Assembly (NCBI RefSeq): GCF_900520355.1
Contig: NZ_LS999521.1
Span: 2,790,001-2,854,000 of the forward strand
Direction: 5' to 3'
Length of the DNA stretch: 64,000 nucleotides
Origin: Acinetobacter calcoaceticus
Lineage (GTDB): Bacteria; Pseudomonadota; Gammaproteobacteria; Pseudomonadales; Moraxellaceae
Part shown: in pieces, positions 14,640 to 17,686 of the stretch
Layout: the number at the start of each line of letters is the position of its first letter
Numbering within the stretch: the first letter of the stretch is position 1
Made by a program: the position numbers and the translations under genes
The notes under the pieces: model-generated
Told to the model about the DNA's origin: nothing
The model's database searches: none
The model's input: the letters and a program-made list of their open reading frames with translations, nothing else

Positions 14640-15077
14640 TCAGTTTTTTAATCTTTTATCATGTCCTGCTAAATAAAATCTAGCGCAACTTACCATAATC
14701 GCAGCTTGTGCTTTAGACTGGTTTGTTTCTTGGGCAACTTTAACTAAACCTTTATTTTCAACCTTATTTTTAATTAAGCAGATTAGTGCAAATTTAGTGG
14801 TGAAATCTGTGTTCACTGAGTTCAATAAACTACGTAATAAAGACTGCACTTGATCGGCTTCAAAATCATTAATCTCACATCGAATATATGATTTTCCCTT
14901 AGAAAGTTCTTTATCCGCTTCACGCATCAACCAGTAAATTTGATTGATATGAAGTCCGTCCGGTAGATCACCGCCTTTCATTCTAACTGTTTCACACCAA
15001 GCGCCAAACTGCTCTAACCAACCATCAATAGTATATTTTGACCAGTCCATTTGTTGTGTTTTTAAAGCTGCACTCAT
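14640..15077 (-). CDS. Q-like late antiterminator candidate
   Basis: A 145-residue protein at the end of the minus-strand early operon, exactly where lambda-like phages encode Q. The N-terminal part (IDGWLEQFGAWCETVRM) has the Trp-rich start seen in Q-type proteins. The C-terminal helix-turn-helix-like segment reads KVAQETNQSKAQAAIMVSCARF. Four intrinsic terminators lie downstream within the late region, so an antitermination function makes sense. Its start overlaps the nuclease gene by 4 bp (ATGA). Assignment is context-weighted. Confidence 0.55.
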   Translation of the reverse strand: MSAALKTQQMDWSKYTIDGWLEQFGAWCETVRMKGGDLPDGLHINQIYWLMREADKELSKGKSYIRCEINDFEADQVQSLLRSLLNSVNTDFTTKFALICLIKNKVENKGLVKVAQETNQSKAQAAIMVSCARFYLAGHDKRLKN

Positions 15078-15478
15078 TTCTCACCCACCAATTGCTCAAT
15101 TTGTTTAATCGCCACGCCTGCTTTAACTTGCTCTGTACTGAACCGTAAAACTGTAAAACCCATGGTTGCTGTGGAGTTGTATTTCTCCATATCCCCGATG
15201 TAACCTTTGCCTCTTGTGTGACGTCCACCACCTGCCATCCAGATACCGCCCTCTACTTCCACCAGAATCTTTGTGCCGGTAATCAGAAAATCTGCTCTCC
15301 ATTTACGTTTTGGATGGAATTTATATTCCTGCTCAAAATCAATTTTGCAGGCTTTAAGATGTGTTGCTAACAAAATCTCCCCTACACTTGGTTCACGTGT
15401 TTGCTTTGCTGAACGGCGCTTTTTACTTTTCTGAATAGGAAATATTTCACGGTATTCAGCAAGGCTCATTGATGTCAT
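15074..15478 (-). CDS. PD-(D/E)XK nuclease, Vsr/DUF559-like
   Basis: A 134-residue protein with the restriction-endonuclease-like core: a Glu helix (VGEILLATHLKA), then EQEYKFHPKRKWRADFLI with the first acidic residue and ILVEVEGG with the second acidic pair. H-T-R-G-K and TVLRFSTEQV complete a Vsr/DUF559-like layout. It overlaps both neighbours by ATGA (4 bp) in the replication operon. It may nick or resolve phage recombination intermediates, taking the place RusA or NinG hold in lambda; that role is inferred. Confidence 0.65.
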   Translation of the reverse strand: MTSMSLAEYREIFPIQKSKKRRSAKQTREPSVGEILLATHLKACKIDFEQEYKFHPKRKWRADFLITGTKILVEVEGGIWMAGGGRHTRGKGYIGDMEKYNSTATMGFTVLRFSTEQVKAGVAIKQIEQLVGEK

Positions 15479-16428
15479 GCAGCCCCCTTTCCAGTGAAAC
15501 CAACTTGAATGAGGTATGGCATTAATTTTTGTTGTTGCTCAGGATCTGCAAGCTTTACAGCGATACGTGCGGCTAGTTGTTCATAGGACTCGTTTCCTTC
15601 CGCATATTTACTTGCGAATTCAGGAAGCACAGAAAGTTTTTGAGCGAAGGAGTAAATCTGTTTAGAACTAAGTGTGTTTGATTCCCCCTGCGGGACTCGA
15701 ACCTGTGTACCAACGTTATGATTCTTTGATTGTTCACGTGCTTGGTATTTGCCACATGCGTTGATTAACCAATCTGCAAAGTGATAATTCATGAGTTCAT
15801 CACAAAGATTCTTCTGAGCGTTGTAGAGTTCAAATGCTCGTAACTCACGATCGAACCAAGTTGCGTTTTTGATCTGCTCGTAAGTTTCCTGATCAGTTGC
15901 CAAAAGAATTTCTTCACCAAGTTTTTTTAAACTCAACCATGTTTTTTTATTTTTAGATTCTATTGATAGATTCTTTGAAAGATTCCGTGTCCCAACGTTG
16001 GGACTGTTTAACGGAATTGTTGGGACTCTTTCATGGAATTGTTGGAACTGTTCCGTTGTTGGAACTGTTCCATTGTTGGGACTGTTTATTTCGTCATTTT
16101 CAGTGTCAAAGTGTACCCTTGTTGGTACTGTTTCTCTGCCTTTAACTCCGATCAAAAGATAAACTTTTACCTGTTTAGTTCTACCTTCACGCTTACCTGT
16201 ATCGATAATAAATCCGTCCTCAATTAGCTCATCAATAATTTTTAAAACGGTCTTACGGTCCATCTCTGTGTCTTCCACTAAACGAGCAATACTTGGATAA
16301 CACTCATGTGTTTCACCAGCTCTATCAGCCAACGAAAGAAGGACTAATTTTTTAAGTGGCTTTAATGCGCCACCCGCCTTTTGTTTTTGACGGGTTTTCC
16401 AAGCCCAAACTGTTGCATCTAAGCTCAT
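15475..16428 (-). CDS. O-like phage replication initiator (winged helix)
   Basis: A 317-residue protein. Residues about 25-75 (LVLLSLADRAGETHECYPSIA, MDRKTVLKIIDELIEDGFI) form a winged-helix DNA-binding domain of the HTH_36 type found in phage replication proteins. A low-complexity linker (about 105-160) is encoded by DNA full of short repeats. The C-terminal part contains residues likely to contact host replication proteins. Like lambda O, the gene appears to contain its own origin. No DnaC- or DnaB-like partner gene is adjacent, so the host helicase loader question is open. Confidence 0.72.
   Translation of the reverse strand: MSLDATVWAWKTRQKQKAGGALKPLKKLVLLSLADRAGETHECYPSIARLVEDTEMDRKTVLKIIDELIEDGFIIDTGKREGRTKQVKVYLLIGVKGRETVPTRVHFDTENDEINSPNNGTVPTTEQFQQFHERVPTIPLNSPNVGTRNLSKNLSIESKNKKTWLSLKKLGEEILLATDQETYEQIKNATWFDRELRAFELYNAQKNLCDELMNYHFADWLINACGKYQAREQSKNHNVGTQVRVPQGESNTLSSKQIYSFAQKLSVLPEFASKYAEGNESYEQLAARIAVKLADPEQQQKLMPYLIQVGFTGKGAA
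15989..16133. repeat. Iteron-like repeats inside the O-like gene (candidate origin)
   Basis: Six direct copies of a 13-bp unit, GTTGGRACTSTTY with one T variant, start at 15997, 16019, 16041, 16058, 16075 and 16121. Spacings are 22, 22, 17, 17 and 46 bp. An inverted copy abuts the first, making the perfect palindrome GTCCCAACGTTGGGAC at 15989-16004; one more inverted core (GTACCAAC) is at 15707-15714. Spacings are not multiples of three, so the repeats are conserved as DNA and not as protein. They fit initiator binding sites. Confidence 0.72.
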
Positions 16429-17339
16429 AGGCCTTCCCCTAAATATTCATATGCGCTTGTAGCCACAATTGAAACTTGTCCATTTCCAATGGCTTTAAGT
16501 CGGTCCACCCGATTGGCCACCCCATCAGCCACTCGACCCAGTTCGGGTTCAATCGCCCACCATTCCCACCCTCTGGCGAAACTGCTGTATTGAGACGGAT
16601 CTGACGACCCTTCGCTTTGCGCTCGGCTAAGGACTCGTTGCTCCACTTGTTTGCATCGCTCGCAGTCGGGGTTGGAAAGTTTATGACCGCACCCGGTAAA
16701 CCGTTTCTCGGATGAGAACTTATATTTCCACGCTTGTTCCAATCGGATGCTTTTGGGGTTGGCCACATCTTTACAGTTGATTCCAGACAAGGGCTTTTCC
16801 TGCTCCGCTCGGATGGACAATCCATTCTCTTCGCATCCGATGCTTTGGGAGTAGGCAACAATCCAGATTCGGTCACGGATATGGGGCGCTCCAAAGTTAG
16901 ATGCTGAAAAACGTGCCCATTTCGCGTCATACCCCATTTTGGCAAGGTCACTGATGACTCTTGTAAGTCCTCTGGAAACAAGCATTGGTGAGTTTTCCAC
17001 GAACACGTATCGAGGTCGAACTTCACTGATAATTCGTGCCATTTCTGACCAAAGCCCAGAGCGTTCACCTTCGATTCCTGCACCTTTTCCTGCTGACGAA
17101 ATGTCTTGGCACGGAAAGCCGCCAGATATAACGTCAACAATTCCTCGCCATGGTTTTCCGTCAAAAGATGTAATGTCAGACCAAATTGGGAAAGCTTCGA
17201 GAATTCCATCATTCTGTCGTTGCGCCAAAACTTGTGCGGCGTAGGCATCACGTTCAACTGCGCAGACTGTGCGCCATCCCAAGAGGTAAGATGCGAGTAC
17301 TCCGCCACCAGCGCCTGCGAAAAGAGCCAACTCATTCAT
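16425..17339 (-). CDS. DNA cytosine-5 methyltransferase (phage Dcm type)
   Basis: A 304-residue C5 methyltransferase with motif I FAGAGGG (residues 7-13), motif IV GGFPCQ (73-78; catalytic Cys77), motif VI ENS (115-117), motif VIII RDRIW (155-159) and motif X GNGQV near residue 288. The target-recognition region between VIII and X is about 120 residues, short but normal for phage enzymes. It would methylate phage DNA, probably to evade host restriction. It overlaps both operon neighbours by 4 bp (ATGA). A second long frame occupies nearly the whole gene (see 16439-17335). Confidence 0.92.
   Translation of the reverse strand: MNELALFAGAGGGVLASYLLGWRTVCAVERDAYAAQVLAQRQNDGILEAFPIWSDITSFDGKPWRGIVDVISGGFPCQDISSAGKGAGIEGERSGLWSEMARIISEVRPRYVFVENSPMLVSRGLTRVISDLAKMGYDAKWARFSASNFGAPHIRDRIWIVAYSQSIGCEENGLSIRAEQEKPLSGINCKDVANPKSIRLEQAWKYKFSSEKRFTGCGHKLSNPDCERCKQVEQRVLSRAQSEGSSDPSQYSSFARGWEWWAIEPELGRVADGVANRVDRLKAIGNGQVSIVATSAYEYLGEGL
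16439..17335 (-). CDS. Overlapping ORF inside the methyltransferase gene (+1 frame), conserved-looking
   Basis: A 298-codon frame on the same strand, starting at an ATG four bases after the methyltransferase ATG and ending 14 bases before its stop. It is not a random shadow: it contains PTPKASD at residues 161-167 and 192-198 and PTPTASD at 221-227, plus SSVTLPKWGMTRNG and NPNWVEWLMGWPIGWTDL (about 264-281). From memory these are signatures of a phage protein family usually labelled methyltransferase-associated. The last block is encoded by the same bases as the methyltransferase motif X region. Either both frames are translated or one is a conserved by-product; sequence alone cannot decide. 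Confidence 0.5.
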   Translation of the reverse strand: MSWLFSQALVAEYSHLTSWDGAQSAQLNVMPTPHKFWRNDRMMEFSKLSQFGLTLHLLTENHGEELLTLYLAAFRAKTFRQQEKVQESKVNALGFGQKWHELSVKFDLDTCSWKTHQCLFPEDLQESSVTLPKWGMTRNGHVFQHLTLERPISVTESGLLPTPKASDAKRMDCPSERSRKSPCLESTVKMWPTPKASDWNKRGNISSHPRNGLPGAVINFPTPTASDANKWSNESLAERKAKGRQIRLNTAVSPEGGNGGRLNPNWVEWLMGWPIGWTDLKPLEMDKFQLWLQAHMNI

Positions 17340-17686
17340 CTATCCTCCTCTTCATTCATCTGAATGAAAGTGCTACCTAAGTAACGGATCCTTTTAGCCC
17401 GATATAAACTTGAGATAATTTGCCCAGCATGGAAAATTGGCATTCTGTGCTGCACAGAAAGTGCATGCATAAACTCATCACGTTTTACTGCTGCATTATT
17501 TTCATCACGTTTTTGGTCTCGCAAATTCTGCTTACGTACTTCAAGCAATCCTTCTAAAGTTCTAAGAGCTGGTTCATACCACGATTGAATAATTTGCTGA
17601 CGCTTCTGCTCTTGCAGATTGTCTTTATTCGTTTGATTTGGTAAATTAGTTTGCATATTCATTGACCTCAAAATTAATGAATCCAT
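17336..17686 (-). CDS. Phage early-operon protein, unknown
   Basis: A protein of 116 residues from the ATG at 17686, which has AGGAG five bases upstream; a longer frame starts at 17770 and shorter ones at 17662 or 17656. The middle (about 35-75) is a charged helix; the C-terminus (MPIFHAGQIISSLYRAKRIRYLG) resembles a small winged-helix or DNA-binding segment. It overlaps the methyltransferase gene by ATGA. It sits in the position of lambda P or ren-type genes, but I do not recognise the family. Confidence 0.55.
   Translation of the reverse strand: MDSLILRSMNMQTNLPNQTNKDNLQEQKRQQIIQSWYEPALRTLEGLLEVRKQNLRDQKRDENNAAVKRDEFMHALSVQHRMPIFHAGQIISSLYRAKRIRYLGSTFIQMNEEEDR

Follow-up and report, generated by a model that had tools for sequence, protein, structure and literature searches.

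The window, the whole 64,000-nucleotide stretch of Acinetobacter calcoaceticus DNA analysed here, belongs to a genome of 3.93 Mb and contains two long open reading frames on its minus strand that have nearly all of their bases in common. F0 (alpha; 16425..17339, minus strand) is a C5-cytosine DNA methyltransferase frame of 304 aa containing motifs I-VIII and X. F1 (beta; 16439..17335, minus strand) lies in the +1 frame and comprises 298 aa, with target-recognition repeats and a motif-IX-like block. These are the frames that an earlier note on this DNA had described: 304 and 298 codons on the same strand, with the second ATG 4 nt after the first. Both starts fall within the heptamer ATGAATG (17333..17339, minus strand), that of F0 at 17337-17339 and that of F1 at 17333-17335. 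On reading the sequence, a single Shine-Dalgarno-like site, AGGAGG (17344..17349, minus strand), precedes them, with the F0 ATG 4 nt on and the F1 ATG 8 nt on.

The F0 ATGA contains the end of the upstream gene, and the downstream gene starts at the F0 stop; these junctions look as they do in a translationally coupled operon. Among ten window proteins scanned around the pair, matches were found to a transcriptional repressor, a CII-like regulator, a replication initiation protein, a Q-like antiterminator, a terminase large subunit and a portal, and the element therefore reads as a lambdoid-style prophage. None of the ten matched a family labelled restriction enzyme. The second gene downstream (15074-15478, minus strand) matches DUF559 (PF04480, 24.4 bits, cut-off 20.6), a family similar to Vsr-type nucleases. 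It is possible that this gene places a nuclease close to the methyltransferase pair.

Sequence features of the two frames

Analysis of F0 identifies the parts of a cytosine methyltransferase. It matches PF00145 at 127.5 bits (cut-off 22; E 9.9e-37) over residues 4-208, which covers motifs I-VIII including PCQ, and residues 4-168 align with M.HhaI 15-176. The match to phrog_363, labelled DNA methyltransferase, has an E-value of 1.1e-70. The catalytic PCQ of motif IV (17106..17114, minus strand) is placed by translation and by the HhaI alignment; motif X, RLKAIGNGQV, occupies 16473..16502 (minus strand), and its G-N-G-Q residues are kept in 71, 71, 72 and 71 of 72 aligned rows. By inspection, a canonical motif IX is absent from F0, where GRVADGVANRVDRL precedes motif X. 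Judged by profile and motif content, F0 is a C5-cytosine methyltransferase without motif IX in the chain that carries motifs I-VIII.

The +1 frame carries a different set of blocks. SSVTLPKWGMTRNG (16916..16957, minus strand), recognized through counts of a GMTRxG-like pattern, lies opposite the F0 stretch running up to motif VIII. Three repeats follow, each read from the translation and supported by the F1 conservation test: PTPKASD (16835..16855), PTPKASD (16742..16762) and PTPTASD (16655..16675), all on the minus strand. The motif-IX-like block LNPNWVEWLMGWPIGWTDL (16496..16552, minus strand) is conserved at an identity of 0.84 as compared to a null of 0.33 and has counterparts in natural fusions; on the same bases, F0 reads around GRVADGVANRVDRL. 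All of the blocks that had been reported from the sequence are present in F1: PTPxASD in three copies, SSVTLPKWGM and WVEWLMGWPIGWTDL. The same bases do encode both WVEWLMGWPIGWTDL and GRVADGVANRVDRL.

F1 residues 64-280 match phrog_1008 ('DNA methyltransferase') with an E-value of 1.6e-35. No Pfam or NCBIfam family matches F1 at E <= 1, and comparison of its profile with PDB chains returned no related one, the sole match (E 0.39) being an uncharacterized protein. For the first ~125 residues, resemblance to any part of a methyltransferase was not found, and F1 therefore exceeds a small domain. A protein search recovered at least 7733 F1 homologues among 8000 candidates scored. Few of the 120 homologues listed bear a name, in most cases 'hypothetical protein' and in one 'putative cytosine-specific methyltransferase'. 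Four database proteins (P0048, P0032, P0002, P0014) alternate F0 and F1 sequence or have long extra N-terminal sequence; we read these as indel variants, sequencing errors or fusions.

Both frames are conserved and under selection

Two sets of viral loci, which have contigs in common, were examined for the presence of both frames. When loci were chosen by F1 (the best 80 of 599 confirmed stretches), all 80 also match F0, one frame before F1. Here, F1 is stop-free over the matched part in 80/80 and the third frame contains 10-27 stops; one locus (L057) has a single stop inside its F0 match. This check left out the window's own genome (L001), in which the match is on the other strand. When loci were chosen by F0 (the best 80 of 564 confirmed stretches), all 80 match F1, three of them (L099, L137, L147) by partial matches only. 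F1 is stop-free over the span counted in 79/80, with a single stop in L135, and the third frame contains 8-30 stops.

The chance of so long an open frame had been estimated in the earlier note with uniform codons, but this null is not the appropriate one. It is fairer to hold the F0 protein and its codon set constant and to permute the synonymous codons, as was done for 72 loci whose F0 identity is below 75%. All 72 representatives are free of F1 stops, as compared to a mean of 5.44 expected from the shuffling, and only 108 of 21600 shuffles leave F1 stop-free. For the locus identical to the window in both frames (L002, 100%), F1 acquired 4.6 stops on average over 300 shuffles and never fewer than 1, so that 0/300 were stop-free. 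The mean pairwise identity of F1 is 0.429, against a null of 0.249 +- 0.001, and the excess holds for each successive 20-residue block over positions 1-300. The reverse shuffle gave an F0 identity of 0.555 against 0.247, with 0/7200 stop-free; in the recognition region, F0 is barely above this reverse null (0.11-0.17 as compared to 0.09-0.14). As a control, 18 other C5-methyltransferase genes from the same genus have longest +1 open stretches of 31-146 codons, and neither F1 block occurs in the +1 frame of any of these 18 canonical genes. On this comparative evidence from sequences, F1 is a real gene.

The start region supports the same conclusion. There were 154 loci with a complete F1, from which 17 were dropped because they showed no start codon where that of F0 aligns, had an open end, or followed another frame relation. 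The remaining 137 represent 113 distinct F0 genes, and the F1 start is offset by 4 nt in 137/137, a count conditional on those 17 exclusions. The F1 start codon is ATG in 136 and GTG in one. F0 codon 2 is AAT in 134/137, as compared to an AAT:AAC ratio of 595:820 in the rest of F0; the F1 ATG is therefore kept.

Substitution patterns separate the constraint on the two proteins. Across 37 independent close pairs, the F1 nonsynonymous/synonymous (N/S) rate ratio at F0-synonymous sites is 0.31, with values of 0.32, 0.29 and 0.28 for the N-terminal, recognition and C-terminal parts. The corresponding F0 ratio, taken at F1-synonymous sites, is 0.28 for the whole frame and 0.10, 0.68 and 0.30 for the same parts. 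Catalytic motifs I-VIII of F0 are under strong selection (0.10) and its target-recognition region, residues 161-255, is under weak selection; here F0 stands at 0.68 and F1 at 0.29. Substitutions were classed singly, and codons hit more than once give rise to apparent stop classes, 78 in F1 and 104 in F0 of 4751. Each frame is under its own purifying selection: the catalytic part in F0 and the recognition part in F1.

These measurements bear on whether F1 might be untranslated, with a pattern that simply follows from codon usage, nucleic-acid structure or the conservation of F0. F0 conservation does by itself yield an F1 identity of 0.25. Against such a by-product stand the synonymous-shuffle nulls, the F1 ratio of 0.31, and the F1-type genes of the mycobacteriophages Achebe and Lilbooboo, which extend past the overlap with the catalytic gene; we regard it as highly improbable. 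Overprinting with both frames under selection, as the earlier note had proposed, is borne out by the presence of both frames in 80/80 and 80/80 loci, the shuffle nulls and the N/S ratios. The sequence data were also run against the outcomes the note had set against its own proposal, stops in F1 homologues or no selection on F1, and gave no F1 stop in 72/72 and a ratio of 0.31.

Fused and split relatives suggest the role of F1

Natural single-chain and two-chain relatives indicate where the F1 blocks belong. In mycobacteriophage Ramsey, gp69 is one 447-residue chain containing motifs I-VIII, PTP repeats, EWMMGWPAGWVT and IGNGV (motif X), and it matches both PHROG 363 and PHROG 1008. It has the same parts as F0 plus F1 in one polypeptide; it differs in using a single frame, with motif X after the MGWP block in that frame. 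In Achebe, the catalytic gp75 (177 aa) partly overlaps gp74 (244 aa), which contains GMTRSG, PTP repeats, EWMMGWEEGWVT and IGNGV. Lilbooboo 32/33 has Achebe-like parts in two frames, with an overlap that is short as annotated. A block resembling RLxPxFxEWMMGxPxGW...IGNGVxPQQA is found in 33 of 35 loci of the Ramsey, Achebe and Lilbooboo kinds examined, and it occupies the position of the canonical RxLTPREaARLQgFP...GNAV. The F1 block LNPxWVEWLMGxPxGW corresponds to the motif IX position of the single-chain mycobacteriophage relatives.

Profile comparison connects these segments in two steps. The F1 C-terminus matches the fused and split relatives at 88.8% (E 2.9e-7), and these in turn match canonical C-termini with a P-value of 1.3e-4 and a probability of 27%, motif IX falling on IX and X on X. 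Direct comparison of the F1 C-terminus with the canonical set, eight motif IX-X segments of which two are identical, gave no match, and three column-shuffled controls gave nothing. Pfam searches with Achebe gp74 and Lilbooboo gp33, in which motifs IX-X were sought, and with F1 also returned no match. The assignment of motif IX to F1 thus comes from position and from the two-step comparison.

An alternative is that F1 acts on its own as a regulator, an inhibitor or an anti-restriction factor, sharing only the gene with the methyltransferase and forming no part of the enzyme. The N-terminal ~125 residues, conserved above the null while resembling no methyltransferase part found, would fit such a protein, as would the missing Pfam match. 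It is harder to reconcile with the single-chain and split versions, where F1-type repeats and the MGxPxGW block lie between motifs VIII and X, or with an F0 that is nearly unconstrained opposite the F1 repeats, and it appears unlikely. Taken together, the position of the block in fused and split relatives and the division of selection, catalytic in F0 and recognition in F1, most likely make F1 the subunit by which a split methyltransferase recognizes its target. The earlier note had suggested a companion protein acting in target recognition, regulation or anti-restriction. Its tie to the methyltransferase holds, target recognition is favoured with motif IX now added, and regulation or anti-restriction is disfavoured by the fusions, the selection and the profiles.

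Distribution and annotation

Of 18 annotated records examined, 14 have the two frames nested, two are split, one is fused and one, from a Nodularia phage, has no convincing F1. Nested pairs occur in phages of Acinetobacter, Vibrio (two), Salmonella (SI7, epsilon15), Escherichia, Paenibacillus, Lacticaseibacillus, Pseudomonas, Stenotrophomonas, Mycobacterium (SG4) and Bacteroides (with a degenerate block), in one environmental phage, and on a Leptospira plasmid. One frame is annotated in 13 of the 14 nested records, the gene table of the plasmid being incomplete; the frame annotated is F1 for SOVA965 and for Vibrio phage 1.236.O. In Paenibacillus phage Arcticfreeze, both frames are annotated, each as DNA cytosine methyltransferase, and the overlap has therefore already been called at least once. 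To the question raised in the note of whether F1 ever occurs without the methyltransferase, every locus closely examined gives the same answer: the catalytic frame overlaps F1 at least partly.

A loose motif pattern was also sought in three further sets of viral contigs, where the +1 frame carries it in 16/23, 60/69 and 12/23 distinct loci, as compared to 9/2300, 42/6900 and 22/2300 shuffled +1 frames. Elsewhere it appears in the second set, in 4/69 F0 frames and 1/69 +2 frames, and in neither of the other two. The 27 loci missed by the loose pattern are mostly variants (WLMA, TMMG etc.) or truncated or split-looking genes. A stricter pattern, found in +1 in 5/23, 47/69 and 12/23 loci, was dropped as it missed real variants.

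Among bacterial genomes, close F0 relatives (E <= 1e-60) are present in 7/149 of the same genus and F1 profile matches in 7/369 of the class, each count including the window's own genome; one of these seven F1 matches (G225) has six stops inside. In a genome of the class (L249), the N-terminal part of F1 (profile 1-178) lies within a 633-residue open frame, possibly a larger fusion.

Relationships and evolution of the nested class

A phylogeny of motifs I-VIII was built from 54 rows and 159 columns; for 14 of these rows, the trimming relied on a set length or start. In this tree, the nested, partial and fused forms together with the Nodularia sequence form one clade (100/99), outside which lie 14 canonical enzymes. 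The Nodularia phage gene (L204, 1099-1935) is a methyltransferase of this clade with several stops in +1, and this phage possibly lost the second subunit. The tree left out the SI7 kind. In SI7 and epsilon15 (L207 982-1905, L208 1027-2196), a motif II-like segment, YYNEIDPYAAQWL, precedes motif I (FFAGIGVW), as if this kind of enzyme were circularly permuted.

The GMTRxG-like pattern occurs in the +1 frame of 55/72 nested loci (shuffles 205/3600) and in none of 62 SI7-like loci. In Ramsey-like loci, it is found out of frame, in +1, in 24/31 (shuffles 58/1550), which fits a fused form arising from an overlapping one. It often sits there in an out-of-frame open stretch in the catalytic half, of median length 132 codons (L162, L164-L195). 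The tree does not decide the order, nested first or fused first.

These Ramsey-like loci are also the ground for supposing that ribosomes shift from F0 into F1 inside the repeats and so make mainly a single chain, of which the two open reading frames are the zero-frame parts: the permanent fusion has its junction in the PTP-repeat region, and GMTRxG remains out of frame. Three observations count against this: F1 retains its own start 4 nt past that of F0 (136 ATG and one GTG of 137); F1 is constrained from its first residues; and motif X is kept in F0 downstream of the repeats. We consider frameshifting quite unlikely as compared to two separately started proteins.

A tentative history, of which we are slightly more doubtful than confident, is reciprocal overprinting. 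A single-chain ancestor would have been cut by a frame change in the recognition repeats, and each frame would then have been extended over the other half, making each protein half ancestral and half new and locking the pair together. The outcome would be a large, mostly unannotated nested class in phages of proteobacteria, firmicutes and actinobacteria.

Comparison with known split methyltransferases

The small subunit of M.EcoHK31I is encoded inside the gene of the large one, in another frame. As described in passages of PMC3404938, the large polypeptide of this enzyme (YGGCCR) carries motifs I-VIII and X plus a predicted target-recognition domain (TRD), and the small one carries only motif IX; M.AquI (CYCGRG) is described there as a naturally split C5-methyltransferase of two polypeptides. 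Compared by these descriptions, M.EcoHK31I appears to be the nearest known case. F0 resembles its large polypeptide in holding motifs I-VIII and X. The two systems differ in that M.EcoHK31I has its predicted TRD on the large polypeptide, whereas here selection places it in F1, and in that F1 is co-extensive with F0 (298 as compared to 304 aa), starting 4 nt later. With recognition in a different subunit, the F0/F1 pair is therefore not filed as a member of the M.EcoHK31I type. Searches of plasmids and bacterial genomes surfaced no M.EcoHK31I-like restriction system. In M.AquI, motif X lies beside motif IX in the small subunit, whereas F0 is the frame that carries it in the window; Achebe gp75/74 and Lilbooboo 32/33 resemble the M.AquI type.

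The labels of PHROG 1008 and PHROG 363 are silent on their members being one locus read in two frames. The nested phage arrangement was not found in the titles and abstract openings of the literature searched, which covered few subscription papers, and it is absent from the available passages of PMC3404938, PMC6456624, PMC3439449, PMC8227390 and PMC3711429.

A probable two-subunit methyltransferase from one stretch of DNA

Taken in aggregate, the data suggest that F0 and F1 probably form a two-subunit methyltransferase, in which F0 provides catalysis and motif X, and F1 provides target recognition and motif IX. The proposed scheme would involve: translation of two proteins off the same bases of a single mRNA, from one Shine-Dalgarno site and starts 4 nt apart; alpha as the catalytic half, with AdoMet binding, the PCQ nucleophile and motifs I-VIII and X, and beta as the source of the small domain, with motif IX and a variable target-recognition region of PTPxASD repeats; and assembly of a heterodimer that may methylate cytosine at a sequence picked by beta. 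The purpose of this methylation would most likely be to shield phage DNA from host restriction. Translation of both frames, assembly, methylation and its purpose are inferred from sequence, as is the identity of motif IX, by way of the natural fusions.

Long same-strand overlaps in which both products are conserved are hard to prove, and the data here are deep enough to measure selection frame by frame. If the two-subunit assignment is true, annotation shows a single protein for many cytosine methyltransferases of phages that need two, and single-gene cloning and specificity assignments may therefore have failed. The nested pair would also offer a natural test bed for the co-evolution of two proteins when most mutations hit both.
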